Source: Gemmatimonadaceae bacterium (GTDB taxonomy: Bacteria; Gemmatimonadota; Gemmatimonadetes; Gemmatimonadales; Gemmatimonadaceae). From it: a stretch of DNA of 64,000 nt. How positions within the stretch are numbered: position 1 is the first letter of the stretch; the number at the start of each line of letters is the position of its first letter. Below the pieces are notes generated by a model, which was not told the DNA's origin, ran no database searches, and was given only the letters and a program-made list of their open reading frames with translations. Shown here piece after piece: positions 47,866 to 59,808 of this stretch. Location: the NCBI GenBank assembly GCA_013697785.1, contig JACCWE010000042.1:1-64000 (forward strand). The letters are read 5' to 3'. The position numbers and the translations under genes are program-made.

Positions 47866-48990
47866 CTACTCGCGATCGATGGAAGGTGCGGTCGCCCCGG
47901 CCATCGCCGTCGCGGGTATGCGGCCCATTTCGCGGTAGGCGTACGTAATGGGCGGCGGGGTGCCGTCGAGCATCGCGTCGATGATCGCGCGATCGGATGT
48001 CAGCGTGCAGACGGGATCGGTGCGCGTCGCATCGCCGGTGAGGGCGAATGCCTGGCAGCGACAGCCGCCGAAGTCGACGTGCTTGCGCGGGCAGCTGCGA
48101 CAGGGCTCCTGCATCCAGTCATCGCCGCGGTACGCCTTGAAGGCGCTCGACTCTTCCCAGATGTGCCTGATGCTGTGATCGCGCGCGTTGTCGAAGCTGA
48201 GCGTCGTGATCTGCGACGCTGCGTGGCAGGGCATCACCCGACCATCGGGCGCGACGACGAGATAGAAGTTCCCCCATCCGCCTTGGCAAGGCTTCGGGAA
48301 CTCGCTGTAGTAATCGGGAAGCACATAGATGATCTGCATCTTCCCTCGATACTTCTCGACCGCGCGATCGACGATCGCCTCGGAGCGCACGATCTGATCG
48401 CGTGTCGGCATCAGCGACTCTCGACTCAGCACCGCCCAGCCGTAGTACTGCGTGTTCGCGAGCTCGATGCGATCGGCGCCGAGCGCGCCGGCCATGTCTA
48501 TGATCTCGGCGAGATGATCGAGATTGGCGCGATGCAGGACGACGTTCACGCTGAAGGCGAAGTCGAGCTCCTTGATCCACGCAGCCGCCTGATGCTTCGC
48601 ATCCCAGCTGCGAGTGCCGGCGATCTTTTCGGCGATCTCCTTTTCGGAATCCTGAAAGGAGATCTGCACGTGCTCGAGCCCGGCGTCCTTGATGCGCGCG
48701 GCGCGATCGCGCGTGAGGCCTACGGCCGAGGTAACGAGCGTCTGATAGAAGCCCAGCGTGTGCGCGTGGGCGACGAGCTCTTCGAGATCGCGGCGGATGA
48801 GCGGCTCACCGCCGGAGAGTCCGAGCTGGAGCGCGCCGAGCTCGCGCGACTGCGTGAAGACGCGCTTCCAGTCTTCCGTCGAGAGCTCGGACTGCGAGCG
48901 GGCGAGATCGACCGGGTTGGAGCAGTAGGGGCAGTGGAGCGGACAGCGGTGCGTGAGCTCCGCGAGCAAGGTCGTGGGTCTACGATCCAT
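47866..48990 (-). CDS. pqqE: PqqA peptide cyclase (radical SAM)
   Basis: 374 residues. The radical-SAM cluster is CPLHCPYCSNP, followed by LGLSGGEPLIRRDL. The C-terminal SPASM-type auxiliary clusters are CHAAS, CRSCPRKHVDFGGCRCQAF and a final DPVC. PqqE links the Glu and Tyr of PqqA by a C-C bond, the first step of PQQ synthesis. It follows pqqA after a terminator-like hairpin, and its position at the end of the cluster, after pqqBCD and pqqA, differs from the classical ABCDE order. Confidence 0.97.
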   Translation of the reverse strand: MDRRPTTLLAELTHRCPLHCPYCSNPVDLARSQSELSTEDWKRVFTQSRELGALQLGLSGGEPLIRRDLEELVAHAHTLGFYQTLVTSAVGLTRDRAARIKDAGLEHVQISFQDSEKEIAEKIAGTRSWDAKHQAAAWIKELDFAFSVNVVLHRANLDHLAEIIDMAGALGADRIELANTQYYGWAVLSRESLMPTRDQIVRSEAIVDRAVEKYRGKMQIIYVLPDYYSEFPKPCQGGWGNFYLVVAPDGRVMPCHAASQITTLSFDNARDHSIRHIWEESSAFKAYRGDDWMQEPCRSCPRKHVDFGGCRCQAFALTGDATRTDPVCTLTSDRAIIDAMLDGTPPPITYAYREMGRIPATAMAGATAPSIDRE

Positions 48991-49008: not shown

Positions 49009-49039
49009 GAAAAGAGAAGGGACCCGCCGAAGCGGGCCC
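49009..49039 (-). terminator. Terminator-like hairpin between pqqA and pqqE
   Basis: On the minus strand GGGCCCGC pairs with GCGGGTCCC, leaving one bulged base, around a TTCG tetraloop. A T/C-rich stretch (TTCTCTTTTC) follows immediately. It starts 22 bases after the pqqA stop and ends about 18 bases before the pqqE start. It is best read as a partial terminator or an mRNA stabiliser that favours pqqA over pqqE. Confidence 0.6.
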
Positions 49040-49061
49040 CCTGTGCTTCGCTGCGCGCTGG

Positions 49062-49136
49062 TTAGCGGCGGGCGACGTAGGCAGTTACTTCCATCGTGAC
49101 TTCCACGACTTCGAATTCCGGCTTGGTCCAGGACAT
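49062..49136 (-). CDS. pqqA: PQQ precursor peptide PqqA
   Basis: 24 residues: the peptide starts MSWTKPEFEVVEVT and continues MEVTAYVARR. Glu16 and Tyr20 have the E-x-x-x-Y spacing from which PQQ is built, and the WTKP start is conserved in PqqA. An AGGAG ribosome site lies eight bases upstream. It is transcribed from a sigma54-type promoter candidate. It lies between pqqD and pqqE rather than at the head of the cluster. Confidence 0.95.
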   Translation of the reverse strand: MSWTKPEFEVVEVTMEVTAYVARR

Positions 49137-49242
49137 TGCAGGACTCCTGTTAGCGGTAGGTGCATCCTCGCGACCGGCACCCGATAGGCGAGAAAGTTCA
49201 CCCAAACGAGACTACTCACTGGCTCGCGACTACCGTGACTAA

Positions 49243-49259
49243 AGCACTGACCGTGCCGT
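49243..49259 (-). promoter_or_regulatory. Sigma54-type -24/-12 promoter for pqqA
   Basis: On the minus strand the site reads CGGCACGGTCAGTGCTT. GG (49257-49256) and GC (49245-49244) are separated by exactly ten bases, and the CACG after GG matches the TGGCACG-N4-TTGC consensus. The predicted start is near 49232, giving a 5' leader of about 95 bases to pqqA. The adjacent genes encode a sigma54 activator, which supports the call. Confidence 0.7.
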
Positions 49260-49365
49260 GATTATCAGAGCGGTTTACAGACGTCTAAGCTTAATTGCCA
49301 TATGAGCTTACGAAATACATACAGCGTCGACACCTAGCCTGGATTTACCCCCAATTCATCGCCGG

Positions 49366-49385
49366 ATGACCCACAATTGGGTCAT
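49366..49385. promoter_or_regulatory. Palindromic enhancer candidate upstream of pqqA
   Basis: ATGACCC and GGGTCAT form a perfect 7+7 inverted repeat with six bases between. The centre lies about 140 bases upstream of the predicted sigma54 start, a usual distance for NtrC-type enhancers. The DNA between site and promoter (about 49270-49330) is AT-rich for this genome, as expected for bendable DNA. The cognate factor is probably the NtrC-like protein encoded nearby. Confidence 0.6.
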
Positions 49386-49419
49386 TTCACGCAGCGAGCT
49401 CTGCGACTGCTTTGCTACA

Positions 49420-49731
49420 TCATCCCACCGGAGATGACGGCATTTCGTCCCTCACCAGCTCACGGTCCGCCAGCTCCGACAGATACGTCTGCACATCCGC
49501 CAGCACGTCCGCCAGCACGTCCGCGTCATAGCGCTGATTGAGCGTCGCGGCGATCTCCTCGATCGTGCGCTCGCCATCGCACAGCGCAAGAATCTCCGCG
49601 GCCGTGTCGTTCAACAGCACCGCGCCTTCCGGATACTGCAGCACGCTTCGCTGCCTCGCGTCGTCGAATTGCACGCGAGCGAACTTCCAGAGCTTGGGAC
49701 GGGACGAACTCGTGAGTGCCATTCCCATCAC
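49420..49731 (-). CDS. pqqD: PQQ synthesis chaperone PqqD
   Basis: 103 residues from a GTG overlapping the pqqC stop; ATG codons at 49728 and 49722 are alternatives. The PqqD core is RQRSVLQYPEGAVLLNDTAAEILALCDGERTIEEI. PqqD binds PqqA and presents it to PqqE. The C-terminal helix contains a small repeat (ADVLADVLADV) encoded by tandem DNA copies. Confidence 0.94.
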   Translation of the reverse strand: MMGMALTSSSRPKLWKFARVQFDDARQRSVLQYPEGAVLLNDTAAEILALCDGERTIEEIAATLNQRYDADVLADVLADVQTYLSELADRELVRDEMPSSPVG

Positions 49732-50483
49732 TCCTCGCGATACGCGTTGTAGATCGTGTCGATCATCACCCAGAGCATCTCGATCTTGAACGAAAGCGCT
49801 TCGAACGCGCGCTGCTGTGTCTCGACGGTCGTGCAGTACGTCGTCACGATCTCGAGTCCGTGATTGCTGTCGCGCGGCGCCTGCGTGAGCCGGCTGTTGA
49901 AGTAGTCGTACGCGTCAGCACGAATCCACGAGTAGTGTTTGGGCAGCGACTCGAGCCTGCGGCGCATGATGTCCGGCGCGAACAGCTCCGTGAGCGATGA
50001 TGCCGCCGCCTCGACCCACGGCTTCGTCTTGCAGAAGTTCACGTACATCTCGGCCGCGAATCGCACGCCGGGAAGCACGTGACGCTCGTCCTCCATCTCC
50101 TCGCGTGGAACACCGAACGCGATTCCGAGCTGAATCCACTTCTCGATCCCGCCCTCGCCAGGATTGAGCCCATCGTGATCGATGATGCGCTGAATCCACT
50201 TGCGACGGACCTCCGGCAGCGGGCAGTTCGAAATGATCGCGCCATCCTTCCGCGGTATCGCACGCTGATACGCGAGCCGGTTCGCGACCCACCCCTGCAT
50301 CTGCCGCTGCGTGAGCCTTCCCTCGTGCATCAGGTGATGGAAGGGATGCTCCACGTAGTACGATCCGTGAAAGCCACGGAGCGCCCCGATCAGCGCATCG
50401 GGTGCGAGCGGCGACTCGAGCCTCGGGATTGGCGGTGCCGGCGGAGCTGCGACCGTCGGTGCGAAGAGAAGAGAGCTGAACAT
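49728..50483 (-). CDS. pqqC: Pyrroloquinoline-quinone synthase PqqC
   Basis: 251 residues from the ATG at 50483; longer starts exist. Motifs include RGFHGSYYVEHPFHHLMHEG, GWVANRLAYQRAIPRKDGAI and RIIDHDGLNPGEGGIEKW, which carry the substrate-binding His and Arg residues. PqqC carries out the final ring closure and oxidation to PQQ. Tightly packed with pqqB and pqqD. Confidence 0.96.
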   Translation of the reverse strand: MFSSLLFAPTVAAPPAPPIPRLESPLAPDALIGALRGFHGSYYVEHPFHHLMHEGRLTQRQMQGWVANRLAYQRAIPRKDGAIISNCPLPEVRRKWIQRIIDHDGLNPGEGGIEKWIQLGIAFGVPREEMEDERHVLPGVRFAAEMYVNFCKTKPWVEAAASSLTELFAPDIMRRRLESLPKHYSWIRADAYDYFNSRLTQAPRDSNHGLEIVTTYCTTVETQQRAFEALSFKIEMLWVMIDTIYNAYREE

Positions 50484-50540
50484 GGTGAAAGCATACCGCG
50501 TGGTGGGGGGAGTGCACGACACGCGCGCAAAACGCGCGCC

Positions 50541-51449
50541 TCAGATCTCGAAGCGCATCCCATCCATGCCCACGATCAGCCCCGACGCCTCGACCGCCGC
50601 GCGCTCGCTCGAGCCCTCGACGAGCATCGGATTCGTGTTGTTGATGTGCGTATAAACCTTCAGGCGACACGAGAGTTGCGAGAGCACCGCCAAACTTCCC
50701 TCCACACCGGAGACCGGCACGTGCCCCATCGACAGCGCGGGGCGATCGGAGATGTCGAGGCGGGCGAGCTCGTCGTCGGTCCAGAAGGTGCCGTCGAAGA
50801 GAAGCAGCTCAGCCTGATCGAGGCGCGCGAGCAGCTTGGGCCCGAGTCCGCCGCATCCGGGGACGAACGCGCACTCCTTGCCGGTGCTCGTGTCCCTGAT
50901 GAATGCAGCCACCGTGTGCCCAACCTCATCGCGTCGGGCGAAACGAGGCGGGTCACCGCGCACCGCCTTCATCTCGATGGTCAGTCCACTCGAGCTCCCG
51001 TCGCGGTAGTCGAGCGGCACCGGATCACCGAGGTCGACCTCGAGGATCTGTACCGTCGCGAAGGCCTGCGTCACGGCGAGCACGCGCGAGTCATCGGAGA
51101 TGGTGTGCACGACGGCAGGCGTTGCGATGACCTGCAGCAGCCGCCCCTCGCGCAGCAGCGTGATACCGAGCGTGTGGTCGAGCTCCGCGTCGGTCAGCAC
51201 GATTCCCTCGACCGGCACATGCCGCACTCCCTCAACCGCAGCATGCGGCAGCGTCGCGACCTGCTCGCGCACATCAGGGGACGCGTTGCCCAGGAACCAG
51301 CGTACGCCGTCGGCGCTGAACGCGATCGATGATTGGGAGCGCGGGTGCGCGCGCGACGGATCCTCGCGAGCGACGCGGCAGGTGGGGCACCAGCAGTTCC
51401 ATTGAGGGAATCCGCCACCGGCGGCCGTGCCGAGCAGGAAGACGTGCAT
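50541..51449 (-). CDS. pqqB: PQQ biosynthesis hydroxylase PqqB
   Basis: 302 residues of the metallo-beta-lactamase fold. GTAAGGGFPQWNCWCPTCRV at the start holds the Cys cluster that binds zinc, and LTDAELDHTLG, then SMGHVPVSG and YTHINNTNP carry the iron ligands. PqqB hydroxylates the Tyr ring in the cross-linked precursor. It starts six bases after the NtrC-like gene, so it is cotranscribed with the two-component system. Confidence 0.96.
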   Translation of the reverse strand: MHVFLLGTAAGGGFPQWNCWCPTCRVAREDPSRAHPRSQSSIAFSADGVRWFLGNASPDVREQVATLPHAAVEGVRHVPVEGIVLTDAELDHTLGITLLREGRLLQVIATPAVVHTISDDSRVLAVTQAFATVQILEVDLGDPVPLDYRDGSSSGLTIEMKAVRGDPPRFARRDEVGHTVAAFIRDTSTGKECAFVPGCGGLGPKLLARLDQAELLLFDGTFWTDDELARLDISDRPALSMGHVPVSGVEGSLAVLSQLSCRLKVYTHINNTNPMLVEGSSERAAVEASGLIVGMDGMRFEI

Positions 51450-51455
51450 GTTGGG

Positions 51456-52880
51456 TTATTGGATTCCGAATTTCTTGAGACGATAGCGGAGCGTGTCGCG
51501 GCTGACGCCGAGCCGCTGGGCGGCCTGCGTCTGGTTGCCGTTGGCTTCGCGGAGGGCCTGCTCGATCATCGACCTTTCCCATTGCGCGAGGTCGGTGCCG
51601 CGCGGCGGCAGTGCGCCCGGAAGTGAGAGCCCGGTGTTCGCGTCCGTCGCGCTCATGTCCGGTATGGGCATCTCACTCGTCACCCGCACCTGCCCCGCAT
51701 CATCCATCTTCGTCAGCGATAGCTGCTCGGCCTCGAGCACTCCACCCTCGCTCCAGAGCACCGCGCGCTCCATGACGTGACTCAGCTCGCGAACATTCCC
51801 CGGCCACGAGTACGCGAGCAGCGCGTCGCGCACGGCGGGGCTCATGCGCTTCACATCCTTCCCGTACTTCGTGCTGAAGCGGCGCACGAAATCCTCCGCG
51901 AGCAGCAGCACGTCGTCGTCACGCTCGCGCAGCGGCGGAAGGCGGAGCAGTATCACGGCGAGACGAAAGTATAGATCACGTCGAAAAGTGCCCGCCTGCG
52001 CCTCGCGCTCGAGATCGCGGTTGGTCGCCGCGAGGATGCGCACGTCGATCTTGCGATCGCGAATTCCGCCGACGCGCCGCACCATTCGCTCCTCAATGGC
52101 GCGAAGCAGCTTTCCCTGCAGCGCGAGCTCGACATCGCCGATCTCATCGAGGAAGATGAAGCCATGCTCGGCCGCTTCGAACAAACCGATCTTGCTCTGC
52201 TTCGCATCCGTGAACGCGCCGCGCTCGTGGCCGAACAGCTCGGCCTCCATCAGGCTGCCCGGGAGCGCCGTGCAGTTGACCTCGATGAACGGCTTGCTCG
52301 CGCGCGGCCCGCTCGCGTGCAGCGTTCGCGCGATCAGCCCCTTGCCCGTTCCCGTCTCTCCGGTGATGAGCACCGGCGGCGTGTCGTCGAGCGCAGCGAT
52401 CTGTCGCGCCTGCTCCATCACCGCGCGGATCGCAGTCGACTCGCCGATCATTCCGGCGAACGGAAGCTTCTTGGCCTCGCGGTTGCGATAGTAGCTGAGC
52501 TCCTGCTTGAGCAGCGATGTCTCGCGTGCGCGATCCGCGAGCAGCTTGAGCTCCTCGAGGTCGACGGGCTTCTTGAGATAGTCGAAGGCGCCGAGCTTCA
52601 CGGCTTCCACAGCGCCCTCGATGCTGCCGTACGCGGTCATGATGATGACGGGAATCGACGCATCGAATTCACGGATGCGCTCGAGCAGCTCGATGCCGCC
52701 CATGCCGGGAAGTCGCACGTCGGCGAAGATGACGTCGGGGCGAAAGCTTTCCAGCAGCTCGAGCGCCGACTCGGCGTCGCCCGCAACCTCGGCCTCGTAG
52801 CCGGACTCCGTGAGGAAGGTCTTGATCGAGCGCGCAAGCGTGCGCTCGTCGTCGACGATGAGGACGGTCGGGCCGCTCAC
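51456..52880 (-). CDS. NtrC-family sigma54 activator response regulator
   Basis: 474 residues. The receiver domain has D54 (VIFADVRLPGMGG) and K104 (LKKPV). The AAA+ domain shows Walker A GETGTGKG (174-181), the sigma54-contact loop GAFTDA (221-226, a common variant of GAFTGA) and Walker B, and the C-terminus has a Fis-type helix-turn-helix (NQTQAAQRLGVSRDTLRYRL). It overlaps the kinase gene by four bases and lies six bases from pqqB, so PQQ genes are the obvious targets. Confidence 0.95.
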   Translation of the reverse strand: MSGPTVLIVDDERTLARSIKTFLTESGYEAEVAGDAESALELLESFRPDVIFADVRLPGMGGIELLERIREFDASIPVIIMTAYGSIEGAVEAVKLGAFDYLKKPVDLEELKLLADRARETSLLKQELSYYRNREAKKLPFAGMIGESTAIRAVMEQARQIAALDDTPPVLITGETGTGKGLIARTLHASGPRASKPFIEVNCTALPGSLMEAELFGHERGAFTDAKQSKIGLFEAAEHGFIFLDEIGDVELALQGKLLRAIEERMVRRVGGIRDRKIDVRILAATNRDLEREAQAGTFRRDLYFRLAVILLRLPPLRERDDDVLLLAEDFVRRFSTKYGKDVKRMSPAVRDALLAYSWPGNVRELSHVMERAVLWSEGGVLEAEQLSLTKMDDAGQVRVTSEMPIPDMSATDANTGLSLPGALPPRGTDLAQWERSMIEQALREANGNQTQAAQRLGVSRDTLRYRLKKFGIQ

Positions 52881-54409
52881 GAGATCGCCACCCCCGCGAG
52901 TGCTTCCGCTTCGATGCCCGGGAGTCGAATGCGCACCGTCGTCCCCGTGCCGGCGATGCTCGTGATCTCGATCGCGCCGCCGTTCTGCTCCACGTAGCGC
53001 TTGGCGATCGCCAGTCCGAGTCCCGTGCCCTCGCTGCGCGTGGTGAAGAACGGCTCGAAAACCGAGTCGAGCACGCGTGTTGGAATTCCAACCCCGGTAT
53101 CGGCGATCTCGACGGTGACGGACGCGTGATCGTCGGTCTTCGCCGCGATGTTGAGCGAGCCGCCCTTCGGCATGGCATCGAGCGCGTTGGAGACGATCTC
53201 GACGAGCGCCTGCTCGAGCTGCATCGGATCGACTCGTACATCGGGGAGATCGCTGGCGATGTCGAGCGTGAGCGACACGCTCTTCTCCTTGAGGAGCTCG
53301 CCGAAGGGTGGGAGGAGATCCTCGATGAGCCGCGCGATGCTCTCGCGCAGTGGATGGAAGGGCGCAGGCTTCGAGAAGCTGAGCAGATGGCTGACGCGGC
53401 GATCGAGCCGGTCGACCTCCTCGATGATGACGGTCAGATGCTCGCGCGACGACGGCGATTCGGGGTGACGGAGCGCGACCTGCGCCGCGGCGCGGAGACT
53501 TGCGAGCGGATTCCGAATGCCGTGCGCGACGGCTGCCGCCATCTCCCCGATCGATGCGAGCTTCTCGGACTGGACGAGCTGCGCCTGCGTCGACTCGAGC
53601 TGCAACACCTTTCGCTGGAGCTCGGAGTTGAGCCGAGTAGTACCGGCCTGCGACTGCTTGAGGCTCTCGGTCATCTGGGCGAACGAGCGTGCGAGGTCGC
53701 CGATCTCGTCGGGTGAGCTCACATCGATCGGGAGCTCGACCTCGCCTGCGCCGACGCGCGCCATGGCCACGCGCAGCTGGCTGATCGGGCGCGCGAGCCC
53801 GCGCGAGATGAGCCAGGAGGCGAGGAGCCCGGCGCCGACGGCGACGATCAGGATGGCGATGAGCGCGTCGCGCTCGCGCGTCACGATCTCCTCGAGGCGC
53901 GCGTACGCACCACGCACGCTCGACTCTCGCGCCTGGCGATAGATGTCGCGATTGAGCTGCGTGAGCGCCGGCAGGAGCTGGTCGCGAAGATCTCGCTGCG
54001 CCATGCGGTACGACGCCTCGTGCTGCCCCGAGTCATACAGCTTGAAGACGCTGTCCGCGACGCTTTCGATGCGGCGCTGAATCTCCTCGGTGCTGTTCGC
54101 GAGCTGCGACTCGTTCGGCCTGAGCTCCGACCGCCAGCGCTGCTGCCAGAACTTTATTACTTCTCCCGTCGCGCGGAACTCCGCGCGCGCATGCGGATCG
54201 AGCCCGCTCAGATAGCGCCAGATGATCTCGCTCTGGTTGAACATCGCGGTCTCGAGCTCGGAGTACGTGCGCGTGCGGGCCATGTTCTGGCCGAGCATCT
54301 GGAGGGCGTCGCGCTCGAGGACGTTCGTGCGTATCGCCTCGACCCCGATGAGCAGCGCGGGGAGGACCATGAGGGAGAAGCCGAACAGCATCTTGCGCTG
54401 AAAGGTCAT
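52877..54409 (-). CDS. Histidine kinase with HAMP, partner of the NtrC-like regulator
   Basis: 510 residues. A first membrane helix (about 9-26), a periplasmic helical sensor domain (27-180), a second helix (182-203), HAMP (to about 257), a coiled coil and HisKA with His296 (AAAVAHGIRNPLASL). The ATPase has N, G1 and G2 boxes (EIVSNALDAMPKGG, ADTGVGIP, GTGLGLAIAKRYVEQNGG). The periplasmic domain resembles four-helix sensors, so a small ligand from outside may control PQQ synthesis; this is inference. Confidence 0.93.
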   Translation of the reverse strand: MTFQRKMLFGFSLMVLPALLIGVEAIRTNVLERDALQMLGQNMARTRTYSELETAMFNQSEIIWRYLSGLDPHARAEFRATGEVIKFWQQRWRSELRPNESQLANSTEEIQRRIESVADSVFKLYDSGQHEASYRMAQRDLRDQLLPALTQLNRDIYRQARESSVRGAYARLEEIVTRERDALIAILIVAVGAGLLASWLISRGLARPISQLRVAMARVGAGEVELPIDVSSPDEIGDLARSFAQMTESLKQSQAGTTRLNSELQRKVLQLESTQAQLVQSEKLASIGEMAAAVAHGIRNPLASLRAAAQVALRHPESPSSREHLTVIIEEVDRLDRRVSHLLSFSKPAPFHPLRESIARLIEDLLPPFGELLKEKSVSLTLDIASDLPDVRVDPMQLEQALVEIVSNALDAMPKGGSLNIAAKTDDHASVTVEIADTGVGIPTRVLDSVFEPFFTTRSEGTGLGLAIAKRYVEQNGGAIEITSIAGTGTTVRIRLPGIEAEALAGVAIS

Positions 54410-55891: not shown

Positions 55892-57489
55892 GGCGAGCGC
55901 TTCTCGTGCTCGCGCTCGCGATTGCGCCACTTACTTCCCGCGCGCAGGCCCCGGCCCCCGCTGCGCCGGTCATCGTCGCCTCGAAACCTTTCGGCGAGTC
56001 GTATCTCCTCGCCGAGATGTTCGCACAGACACTCGAGGCGCACGGGATATCCGTCGATCGGAAGCCGGGGCTGGGCCAGACGCAGATCGCGATCGAAGCG
56101 CTCCGCTCCGGCGCGATCGATGTCTACCCCGAATACACCGGCACCGGCCTGCTCGCGGTGCTGCACGACACGCTCCCCGATTCGCTCGCGAGCGACGCGC
56201 CCCTCGTCTTTGCACACGTCGCACGCGAGTTCTCCCGACGGTACGGCATGCGCTGGCTACCGCCGCTCGGCTTTCAGAACAGCTACGCGATCGCGGTTCG
56301 AAAGAACACCGCCGCCGAGTATCGTCTCCGCACGATGAGCGATCTCGCGCGCGAGAGCTCGCACCTCACCGCCGGATTCACGGCGGACTTCATCGGCCGC
56401 CCCGATGGACTCGCCGGCCTCGCGCGCGCATACGGCGTTCGGCCGCGAGCGGTGCGTCCACTCGCACCAGCAGTGAAGTACCAGGCGCTCGCGAGCGGCG
56501 CGGTCGACGTCATCGATGGCTACTCCACCGACGGCCTCCTCGCGAAGTACGACCTCGTCACGCTCATCGACGACAAGCACTTTTTCCCGCCGTACCAGGC
56601 CGCCGCGCTGGTTGGCTCGCGCCTCGCGCACAACCGCCCCGACGCACTGGCCGCGCTCACGACGCTGAGTGGCATGCTCGACGAACGCCGCATGCGCGCG
56701 CTCAACCGGCGCATCGAAGTCGACGGCGAAGATGTGAAGCGCGTCGCCGCTGATGCGCTGCGGGACGTCGGCATCACCGCAGCAACATCGGAACGCGCCG
56801 CTGGTGGCGCATCCGAAAACCGGAAATCTCTTAGTACTAAGGGATCTTTGTCATCCTATCTCTGGCAGCGACGCGCCTCGATCTGGCATCTCGTTCTCCA
56901 GCATCTCCTCCTCGTCGCCCTCGCACTCGGCGCCGCCATCGTCGTCGCGCTGCCGCTCGCTCTCGCGCTCGAGCGCACGCGTCGGCTCGCCGAGCCGATC
57001 GTCGGCGCGCTCGGCGTGCTCGAAACGATTCCGAGCATCGCGCTCCTCGCCTTCATGATTCCCTTCTTCGGCATTGGGATCGAGCCGGCGCTCGTGGCGC
57101 TCTGGATCTACGCCCTCTATCCCATCGTGCGCTCTGCCTACAGCGGCGTCCGCGACGCCGACCCCTCGGCCGTCGAAGCCGCGGAAGCGCTCGGGATGAC
57201 GCCGTGGCATCGCCTCCTTTCGGTGCGCCTTCCACTCGCGGCGCCAGTGATCATGTCGGGGATTCGAACCGCTGCGGTCATTACCGTGGGCGCGGCAACG
57301 CTCGCCGCCTTCATCGGCGCCGGGGGGCTCGGCGAGCCGATCGTCGCGGGACTCGCGCTCGCCGACACGAACATGATTCTCTCCGGTGCACTCCCCGCCG
57401 CGGCGCTCGCCCTACTGGTCGACGGTGCGCTCGCGCTGGTCGAACGCGCGGTCGCACCGGCCCATCAGCGTCACACCGCTTCCAGGTAG
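55888..57489 (+). CDS. Fused binding protein-permease of a glycine-betaine/choline-type ABC importer
   Basis: 533 residues. A signal (to about 20) precedes an OpuAC-type binding domain (about 27-300; SKPFGESYLLAEMFAQTLEA, DVYPEYTGTGLLAVL, AVDVIDGYSTDGLL). A polar linker (about 305-325) leads to an OpuCB-type permease with five to six membrane helices and the EAA loop (EAAEALGMTPWHRLLSVRLP). Most fusions place the permease first. Here the binding domain is N-terminal. The linker is coded by a 19-base repeat also found at 5847. Substrate is a quaternary amine by family. Confidence 0.9.
   Translation: MRRALLVLALAIAPLTSRAQAPAPAAPVIVASKPFGESYLLAEMFAQTLEAHGISVDRKPGLGQTQIAIEALRSGAIDVYPEYTGTGLLAVLHDTLPDSLASDAPLVFAHVAREFSRRYGMRWLPPLGFQNSYAIAVRKNTAAEYRLRTMSDLARESSHLTAGFTADFIGRPDGLAGLARAYGVRPRAVRPLAPAVKYQALASGAVDVIDGYSTDGLLAKYDLVTLIDDKHFFPPYQAAALVGSRLAHNRPDALAALTTLSGMLDERRMRALNRRIEVDGEDVKRVAADALRDVGITAATSERAAGGASENRKSLSTKGSLSSYLWQRRASIWHLVLQHLLLVALALGAAIVVALPLALALERTRRLAEPIVGALGVLETIPSIALLAFMIPFFGIGIEPALVALWIYALYPIVRSAYSGVRDADPSAVEAAEALGMTPWHRLLSVRLPLAAPVIMSGIRTAAVITVGAATLAAFIGAGGLGEPIVAGLALADTNMILSGALPAAALALLVDGALALVERAVAPAHQRHTASR
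56823..56841. repeat. 19-base near-palindromic repeat, copy 2
   Basis: GAAATCTCTTAGTACTAAG differs at only two positions from the minus-strand copy at 5847-5865. It lies inside the fused permease gene and, with the following bases (GGATCTTTGTCATCC), codes for the linker. The core CTTAGTACTAAG is itself a perfect palindrome. Confidence 0.5.
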
Positions 57490-58442
57490 ACGACCCAGAA
57501 CTGCCGCTTCGCGTTCGTCCACAGCTTCCTGATGCGGAAGCCCGCCGTGTCGACCAGCTCCTCGAGGCGCGCGCGATCGTACTTGTACGAGCTCTCCGTC
57601 CAGATTGATTCGCCCTTCTCGAAGTCGACGAGCTCGTCCGCCACCTTCACCGTCTGAGCTTCCGTGCTGACGAGATGCATCTCGACTCTGCTCGCGCTCG
57701 AATTGAAGAAGGCGCGATGCCGGAACTTGTCGAGGTCGAAGCGGGCGCCCACATCGTGGTTGAGCACCTTCAGCATGTTCAGGTTGAACTTCGCCGTTAC
57801 CCCTGCCGAGTCATCGTAGGCCGCGTTGAGCACCGCGACGCCCTTGCGGCGGTCGACACCGAGGATCAGCGCGCCATCCTTGCCGACGACACGACGCACG
57901 CGACTCAGGAACGCGACCGCCTCCATCGGATGGAAGTTGCCGATCGTCGAGCCCGGGAAGAACGCGACTCTGCGCGAGCGCACGGGAAGGTCGGGAACCG
58001 TGTGCGGACGCGTGTAGTCCGCGTTCAGTGGTCGCACCGCGACATCGCGATACTCGGCCGCGAGCTCGGTCGCCACGCGCTCGAGCTGCTCGCGCGAGAT
58101 GTCGATCGGCACGTACGCCGCCGGCGACTCCAGCGCGTCGAGCAGCAGCCGAATTTTCACGCCGGCGCCGCTCCCGTACTCGAGCAGAGCGACCTGCGGC
58201 CCGGCGAGCTCCGCGATCTCGCCCGCGCGCGCGCGAAGGATCTCGAGCTCGGCTCGCGTGAGATAGTACTCGGGAAGATCGCAGATCTCCTCGAACAGCT
58301 CGGCGCCGACGGCATCGTAAAACAGCTTCGGCGGCAGCGTCTTCGGCTCGGCGTGCAGCCCGCGAAGTACTTCGTCGCGGACGCTCTGCTTATTCGAGCG
58401 CGCGACGATGCGCGGCACACCTTGCCGCGAAGTCATCGTCAT
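57471..58442 (-). CDS. egtD: L-histidine N-alpha-methyltransferase EgtD
   Basis: 323 residues from the ATG at 58442. The family pattern is PPKLFYDAVGAELFEEICDLPEYYLTR, then ALLEYGSGAGVKIRLLLDAL (SAM-binding) and FFPGSTIGNFHP. EgtD trimethylates histidine to hercynine in ergothioneine synthesis. It follows egtB after ten bases, and its 3' end overlaps the convergent permease gene by 19 bases. Confidence 0.96.
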   Translation of the reverse strand: MTMTSRQGVPRIVARSNKQSVRDEVLRGLHAEPKTLPPKLFYDAVGAELFEEICDLPEYYLTRAELEILRARAGEIAELAGPQVALLEYGSGAGVKIRLLLDALESPAAYVPIDISREQLERVATELAAEYRDVAVRPLNADYTRPHTVPDLPVRSRRVAFFPGSTIGNFHPMEAVAFLSRVRRVVGKDGALILGVDRRKGVAVLNAAYDDSAGVTAKFNLNMLKVLNHDVGARFDLDKFRHRAFFNSSASRVEMHLVSTEAQTVKVADELVDFEKGESIWTESSYKYDRARLEELVDTAGFRIRKLWTNAKRQFWVVYLEAV

Positions 58443-58452
58443 CGAGCACTCA

Positions 58453-59808
58453 TCACGCGTGGTCGGCAAGGCGAATCCCCATGAACTGCCACCGTGCATC
58501 CGATGGGAAGAAGTTTCTGTACGTGAGCCGCGCGTGCGAGCGCGGCGTGGCGCACGATGCGCCGCGCAGCACCCACTGATCGGCCATCCACTTGCCATTG
58601 TATTCACCAATCGCGCCAGTGTCCGTCTTGAAGCCCGGATAGCCGACGTACGCGCTCTGCGTCCACTGCCACACATCGCCATAGAGCTGCGTGAGCTCGC
58701 CCGACGCGATCGCTTCGGCGCTCGCCGGCGCCGGATGGAAATTCTCGCTCTCGACGAAGTTCCCCGTGATCGGAATGCCTCGCGCGGCGACCTCCCACTC
58801 GGCCTCCGTCGGCAGGCGACGCTTCGCCCACCGTGCGAATGCATCCGCTTCGTAGTAGCTCACGTGACACACTGGCGCATCGAGCTCCAGGGCTCGCGTG
58901 CCGGCGAGTGTGAACTCCGTCCAGCCATCGTCCACGCGCTCCCAGTAGAACGGCGCTTTCCAGCCGCCATCATTCACCATCGCGAGACCGGGCGAAAGCC
59001 AGAGCTCGGAGCGCTCGTAGCCGCCATCGTTGACGAACTCGAGATAGTCGGCGTTCGTCACGAGGCGCGACGCGAGCTCGAAGTCCTCGAGGAATTCGCG
59101 ATGCGCAGGGAGCTCGTTATCGAACGAGAAGCCGTCGTCCTGATGGCCGATGCGATGCACACCGCCGCTGAACGACTTCCACGCAGTGGCCGGGAGAGCG
59201 CGCGATGGAACTTCAGCGCGCTCGCGATATACCGGGCGGAGCGGGTTCATCCAGAAGACGTGCTTTATGTCGGTGACGAGCAGCTCCTGATGCTGCTGCT
59301 CGTGATGAAGGCCGAGCACGATCAGCGGGTATGCAGGGTGGCTCGGATCGTCGTTGATCTCGGCGAGTAGCGCGCGCACCGCTTCGTTCACGTGCGCGCG
59401 GTATTCGAAGACCTCGCGCACGGTGGGGCGTGTCACGAGACCGCGCATCGCTCTGCAGTGGCGCTCGCCCGCCTGCACGTAGTATGAGTTGAACAGGAAT
59501 GCGTAGCGCGGGTTCGGCGACACGTACTCGGGTGCGTGCGGACCGAGGATGAACGTCTCGTAGAACCAGCTCGTATGCGCGAGATGCCACTTCGTCGGAC
59601 TTACGTCGGCCATGCTGCTGACGACGAAATCCTCGGTGTCGAGCGGCTCGCACAACCGTTCGGTCTGCGCACGAACAGCGTCGAAGCGCTCGGCCAGCGT
59701 CTGGGTGCGGTGCTGTGATCGCGAGCTATCGGAGCGGTCGGACTCGGACTGGGCAGTGAGCATCGATGCAGCCATTGGTAGCCTTGAGGCAGAAGCAGAC
59801 GTTAACAT
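58453..59808 (-). CDS. egtB: Ergothioneine biosynthesis sulfoxide synthase EgtB
   Basis: About 451 residues; ATG codons at 59808, 59775 and 59763 are all usable. The N-terminal DinB-like part has the iron motif HHEQQHQE (HX3HXE) and SPTKWHLAHTSWFYE. The C-terminal FGE-sulfatase domain follows (SYYEADAFARWAKRRLPTEAEWE, then WVLRGASCATPRSHAR). EgtB forms the C-S bond between hercynine and a thiol donor. egtC and egtE are not in the window, so the gamma-glutamyl-cysteine or cysteine route cannot be decided. Confidence 0.96.
   Translation of the reverse strand: MLTSASASRLPMAASMLTAQSESDRSDSSRSQHRTQTLAERFDAVRAQTERLCEPLDTEDFVVSSMADVSPTKWHLAHTSWFYETFILGPHAPEYVSPNPRYAFLFNSYYVQAGERHCRAMRGLVTRPTVREVFEYRAHVNEAVRALLAEINDDPSHPAYPLIVLGLHHEQQHQELLVTDIKHVFWMNPLRPVYRERAEVPSRALPATAWKSFSGGVHRIGHQDDGFSFDNELPAHREFLEDFELASRLVTNADYLEFVNDGGYERSELWLSPGLAMVNDGGWKAPFYWERVDDGWTEFTLAGTRALELDAPVCHVSYYEADAFARWAKRRLPTEAEWEVAARGIPITGNFVESENFHPAPASAEAIASGELTQLYGDVWQWTQSAYVGYPGFKTDTGAIGEYNGKWMADQWVLRGASCATPRSHARLTYRNFFPSDARWQFMGIRLADHA

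Follow-up and report, generated by a model that had tools for sequence, protein, structure and literature searches.

PqqA, the precursor of PQQ, is a peptide substrate of PqqE acting with PqqD (PMC7936290, PMC12997753), and several regulators have been described around this pathway. In Pseudomonas, the PQQ synthesis genes are activated by the alcohol-linked AgmR/ErbR (PMC12997753), and in Pseudomonas aeruginosa the sigma54-type CbrA/CbrB affects the levels of the pqqA transcript, mostly indirectly through crcZ/Crc and perhaps agmR (PMC3480352). Two-component control is also found around the PQQ-dependent alcohol dehydrogenases, with MxcQE/MxbDM, MxaY and PedS2/PedR2 (PMC6115532). In our literature search, no NtrC-type regulator acting at pqqA is described among these last systems, and no direct sigma54 system at this gene was found in the full texts searched, most subscription journals being outside the scope.

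The locus that we examine here lies in the window, that is, the whole stretch of 64,000 nucleotides that was analysed from a Gemmatimonadaceae genome, and it is a known kind of circuit in a new use, at pqqA. Like CbrA/CbrB, its kinase and regulator form a sigma54-type two-component system, but no UAS at pqqA is described for CbrA/CbrB in PMC3480352. AgmR/ErbR differs from the regulator of the window in being LuxR-type and in having the whole pqq operon as its target, while MxcQE/MxbDM, MxaY and PedS2/PedR2 control the dehydrogenase genes (the Ca/lanthanide switch), PedR2 being LuxR-type as well. The likeness is rather to the NtrB/NtrC-type systems, which also have a palindromic UAS, about 110-160 bp above the -24/-12 start. 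Among NtrB/NtrC, AtoS/AtoC and ZraS/ZraR, the core of the kinase is closest to AtoS and ZraS and the regulator to the AtoC and NtrC models, but the sensor is another one and the target is a PQQ precursor gene. The pair is neither NtrB/NtrC proper (406 bits vs 558.6 for ntrC, 125 vs 240 for NR(II)) nor AtoS/AtoC (241 bits vs 646 for AtoS, 447 vs 714 for AtoC), all scores being far below the equivalog cut-offs.

Table 1. Features of the PQQ locus in the window, with the basis of each call
Feature	Position	Strand	Basis and remarks
Sensor histidine kinase	52877..54409	-	Periplasmic helical sensor (about residues 30-180), HAMP, HisKA (His296), HATPase; Pfam/NCBIfam
Response regulator	51456..52880	-	Receiver, sigma54 AAA+ (GAFTDA loop), Fis-type HTH; Pfam/NCBIfam
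pqqB	50541..51449	-	TIGR02108, 335 bits vs cut-off 245
pqqC	49728..50522	-	TIGR02111, 299 bits vs cut-off 240; true start possibly internal
pqqD	49420..49731	-	TIGR03859, 78 bits vs cut-off 46
Predicted enhancer (UAS) palindrome ATGACCCA-ATTG-TGGGTCAT	49366..49385	.	Motif and counterparts in relatives
Sigma54 -24/-12 element CGGCACGGTCAGTGCT	49243..49258	-	Predicted start near 49232
pqqA, 24-aa PQQ precursor peptide MSWTKPEFEVVEVTMEVTAYVARR	49062..49136	-	Sequence pattern, E-x3-Y
Intrinsic terminator hairpin after pqqA	49017..49042	-	11 pairs, then CTCTTTT
pqqE	47866..48990	-	TIGR02109, 522 bits vs cut-off 381

The PQQ biosynthesis gene set is complete, with pqqA to pqqE present and the E-x3-Y of the precursor intact, and PqqB, PqqC, PqqD and PqqE are called from scores above the NCBIfam equivalog cut-offs (Table 1). 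The order kinase, sigma54 activator, pqqB, C, D, A, E on the minus strand, as first read from the letters, is backed by the Pfam/NCBIfam domain matches; the host is a member of the Gemmatimonadota and not a proteobacterium. The genes pqqBCD follow closely behind the pair, and pqqE lies beyond a terminator hairpin that is absent from the initial annotation. By pattern search the genome has a single pqqA; strong sigma54-activator domains are found in 13 of its genes, 12 of them besides the regulator of the pair, and there is one rpoN. Further along the window (57471-59808), an EgtD methyltransferase adjoins a DinB/FGE-sulfatase-type protein, as in ergothioneine synthesis.

All the pieces of an NtrC-type sigma54 two-component system are thus found: a regulator with receiver, AAA+ and Fis HTH domains, a histidine kinase, rpoN, and a -24/-12 element with an upstream palindrome. 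The relatives of the kinase that bear a name come from Gemmatimonadales/Gemmatimonadaceae MAGs (81-89% identity), which places the window in the Gemmatimonadota. The phospho-acceptor His296 and the AAA+ motifs are conserved. The sigma54 contact loop of the regulator reads GAFTDA, not GAFTGA, in 30/30 orthologs. The N-terminal 260 residues of the kinase are predicted as long helices (AlphaFold, pLDDT 81.5), and in a Foldseek search the sole PDB match below E 0.001 is a NarQ sensor fragment (E 7e-4); chemoreceptor bundles come next, including the citrate/malate MCP2201 four-helix bundle, with a weak E-value and a TM of 0.77-0.78 (target length). From this model, the domain is likely a periplasmic small-solute sensor, but no ligand can be named from a fold search in which only NarQ passes E 0.001 and MCP2201 has a weak E-value.

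The gap of about 285 bp between pqqD and pqqA holds both elements that had been claimed before pqqA. The -24/-12 element, CGGCACG-GTCA-GTGCT, has 10/12 matches to TGGCACG-N4-TTGCW, and the palindrome has perfect 8-bp arms, its centre being 118 bp above the GG of the -24 box. The exact palindrome is unique in the 3.8 Mb genome of the window; allowing one mismatch adds 3 places, each of which is overlapped by a long open frame and lacks a -24/-12 in its vicinity. An exact inverted half-site pair is found in 0.24% of Markov sequences, whereas about 10% of 350-bp Markov sequences hold a -24/-12 of score >=9 (of 12), so that the element in one genome alone is weak evidence and its significance comes from the comparative set.

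For the Gemmatimonadota, this set draws on 395 genomes, of which 44 carry pqqC above the cut-off, and the loci were fetched and their genes mapped. A -24/-12 precedes the adjacent pqqA in 45/45 loci with an orthologous pair (score >=9 in 43, score 8 in two), as a TGGCACG-N4-NTGCW-like element 57-128 bp above the pqqA ATG, a count to be read knowing that the genomes are related and hence not independent. Among the linked loci, 35/36 score at least 9/12, as do 5/6 of the relocated ones and 3/3 of those from other phyla. In an alignment anchored on the element, from a scan that required its GG and GC and left C, A, C/T, G and T free, GGCACG carries 1.3-2.0 bits and TGC 2.0 bits; the flanks stay near 0.12 bits per column, so the conservation of the element is not simple relatedness. 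Exact inverted TGGGT[GC] half-sites are present in 34/42 Gemmatimonadota loci (29/36 linked and 5/6 relocated) vs 0/9 pqqA copies that are not beside the pair, and the TGGGT[GC]/[GC]ACCCA pair is mostly centred 84-134 bp above the -24 GG. The remaining 8/42 loci, and all 3 in other phyla (0/3), have no exact 6+6 pair. Of the nine pair-less pqqA copies, three reach score 9 and none reaches 10. A hairpin after pqqA is called in 35/40 loci with the pair.

The situation in which relatives would keep the pair and lack both palindrome and -24/-12 is therefore not what we see, since the element stands in all 45 loci; the palindrome itself is conserved in another form than was announced. Indeed, the exact ATGACCC-N6-GGGTCAT is a version private to the genome of the window, its relatives carrying TGGGTGA/TCACCCA half-sites, and we rule out the exact string as a conserved feature: of the 7/395 genomes that have it, only that of the window is pqqC-positive. 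In the nearest relatives, one half-site is degenerate (TGCCCCA-N4-TGGGTGA in G313; one clear half-site kept in L194). Could these motifs be due to chance, or have another role, such as a palindrome that terminates pqqBCD and a pqqA that uses an ordinary promoter? The 10% background of the -24/-12 speaks for it, but conservation in 45 loci, several families and three phyla, the lack of a T run behind the palindrome at 49366-49385, and the absence of any sigma70-like site in a search of the region make this the reading that we disfavour most strongly.

Some pqqA leaders hold further palindromes. In L054, L055, L060, L083, L084, L089, L090, L091 and L199, TGGGTG-N4-CACCCA occurs a second time, downstream of the promoter and at a near-fixed distance of 51-53 bases from the start of the -24/-12 element; a feedback operator or a leader hairpin are possible roles for it. 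In a sister group (L064, L065, L067-L070, L072, L074, L075, L079, L213), the palindrome found in the leader is a different one, resembling TGGTCGACCA, and sits 32-41 bases past the start of the element.

The gene pqqA travels with its promoter through four gene orders (HK and RR standing for kinase and regulator). HK-RR-A-BCDE is that of most loci of the second family of the survey, with pqqA mostly 150-500 bp after the regulator. HK-RR-BCD-A-E is that of the window, G313 and L194, so that in the genus of the window pqqA and its upstream region sit between pqqD and pqqE. The other two are HK-RR-A-E, apart from BCD, and HK-RR-A alone. In six genomes (G026, G104, G199, G357, G362 and G328), the pair does not adjoin pqqBCD, and in each of them the gene directly behind it is a pqqA with a -24/-12, followed by a hairpin and, in four, by pqqE. 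All of these but G328 have two pqqA genes, of which the copy on the side of the pair alone has the element (with exact half-sites in 4/5), while the copy heading pqqBCD has neither element nor half-sites; L156, L157, L158, L159 and L160 are such second-copy cassettes. G107 belongs to the genus of G026 and G104; it lacks both a kinase ortholog and the control region, and a single pqqA was found in it. Kinase orthologs occur in 38/44 pqqC-positive genomes vs 0/351 pqqC-negative ones, which we quote only as a count because shared ancestry inflates any test. With the sensor half of the kinase as query, orthologs of >=53% identity that cover most of its length came from 37 genomes, every one of them pqqC-positive, and G371, in which the kinase gene is cut by a contig end, is the 38th.

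This co-movement bears on whether sigma54 control of pqqA might come from a different one of the 13 activators, in which case the pair beside it would serve something else and the linkage would be historical. The genome does offer 12 other activators, and the binding specificity of the regulator is predicted from sequence; however, pair and control region coincide even away from pqqBCD, the pair-less pqqA copies lack the region, and the regulator, 56-91% identical to its orthologs at pqqA loci, is at most 42% identical to its 12 paralogs (tblastn). We therefore consider this explanation very improbable.

The target of the circuit appears to be narrow. No sigma54 element was found for pqqBCD themselves in the window, and there was no support for the pair regulating itself through a sigma54 site in front of the kinase gene (0/26 loci with score >=10 or half-sites). 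Sigma54 control had been announced for the PQQ genes as a whole: it stands for pqqA itself and is given up for the operon, since pqqA has a terminator behind it and keeps its promoter in all four gene orders. Second targets were sought by pattern searches. In the genome of the window, with one mismatch allowed, no second place combines palindrome and -24/-12, and in 32 genomes the strict TGGGTG-N4-CACCCA is mostly at pqqA, with a few other places at about the chance rate (our own estimate being about 0.4 per genome). A wider regulon, in which the pair would chiefly regulate PQQ-dependent alcohol/methanol dehydrogenases, or lanthanide/methanol use, with pqqA as one member, is improbable, though the least so of the alternatives. 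It would fit the five TIGR03075 quinoprotein dehydrogenases of the genome, which bear the W-D-[YF]-D lanthanide-type signature, and the distant homologs of the pair that lie beside xoxF/xoxJ-like genes in verrucomicrobial methanotrophs (L247, L249); but there was no support for those five genes as targets, neither a half-site pair nor a strong -24/-12 lying close upstream of them, and the genome-wide half-site searches return pqqA plus matches at about chance.

Beyond the Gemmatimonadota, the kinase has full-length orthologs in Methylomirabilota, Rokubacteria and Acidobacteriota; those in verrucomicrobial methanotrophs are distant. The HK-RR-(-24/-12)-pqqA arrangement recurs in Methylomirabilota (NC10; L219 and L242, with pqqBCDE) and in Rokubacteria (L237), while L224 and L228 are orthologous pairs of other phyla without pqqA alongside. 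In NC10 L234, L235 and L243, the -24/-12 after the regulator leads to non-pqqA genes, by eye a luciferase-like monooxygenase (L234/L235) or a creatininase-like gene (L243). In Acidobacteriota L233, after 7083, a PqqE-like gene comes behind the pair and several TGGGTC/GACCCA half-sites, and no pqqA was seen in the interval. In L247 (7343-10950) and L249 (7415-11699), a distant pair (kinase 33-36%, regulator 48-49% identity) adjoins an xoxF-type dehydrogenase and an apparent xoxJ-type solute-binding gene. Since non-pqqA genes accompany some of the outlying pairs, the link to pqqA is strongest in Gemmatimonadota and the targets of the family vary further out; judging from gene neighbourhoods, the regulator may have other or additional targets in other phyla.

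Taken from sequence, the evidence makes it very probable that PqqA, the peptide used in PQQ synthesis, has a two-component sigma54 circuit of its own that governs its supply. The membrane kinase would sense a periplasmic signal via its helical-bundle domain and would phosphorylate the NtrC-type regulator, which in turn would bind the inverted TGGGT[G/C]A half-sites about 85-135 bp above the -24 element and activate the sigma54 polymerase at the pqqA promoter. The resulting short transcript, a leader of about 100 nt plus pqqA, would mostly end at the terminator, with read-through into pqqE if termination is partial. One PqqA peptide is used per PQQ cofactor, which makes pqqA a natural control point. 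That pqqBCD follow the pair closely in the window, with no sigma54 element of their own found, points to the peptide, and not to the enzymes, as the regulated step. The NtrB/NtrC-type control first proposed at pqqA is supported by the parts seen in the sequence and by their conservation, co-occurrence and co-movement; the operon-wide target and the conserved exact palindrome are given up.

To our knowledge, little is known outside Proteobacteria about how the supply of PQQ is adjusted to the need for it. In one soil proteome from beneath the grass root zone, the protein that ranked first in abundance was a Gemmatimonadetes PQQ methanol dehydrogenase (PMC5103831). The data, as far as sequences go, point to a previously undescribed switch for cofactor supply in soil Gemmatimonadota and in some relatives in other phyla. 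More tentatively, and with slightly less than even confidence, the HK-RR-pqqA cassette of Gemmatimonadota, NC10 and Rokubacteria could be a stand-alone module that responds to a periplasmic signal linked with lanthanide/alcohol metabolism and meters PQQ supply through its peptide, in some cases by adding an inducible pqqA to a constitutive one. We know of no earlier case in which a ribosomally made cofactor has a sigma54 circuit reserved for its precursor peptide, and if this metering reading is true, this would be the first. The cassette gives a defined predicted start site, operator and sensor, and the conserved sensor domain opens an approach to the signal, for which methanol or another alcohol, a lanthanide, PQQ or an organic acid are the candidates.
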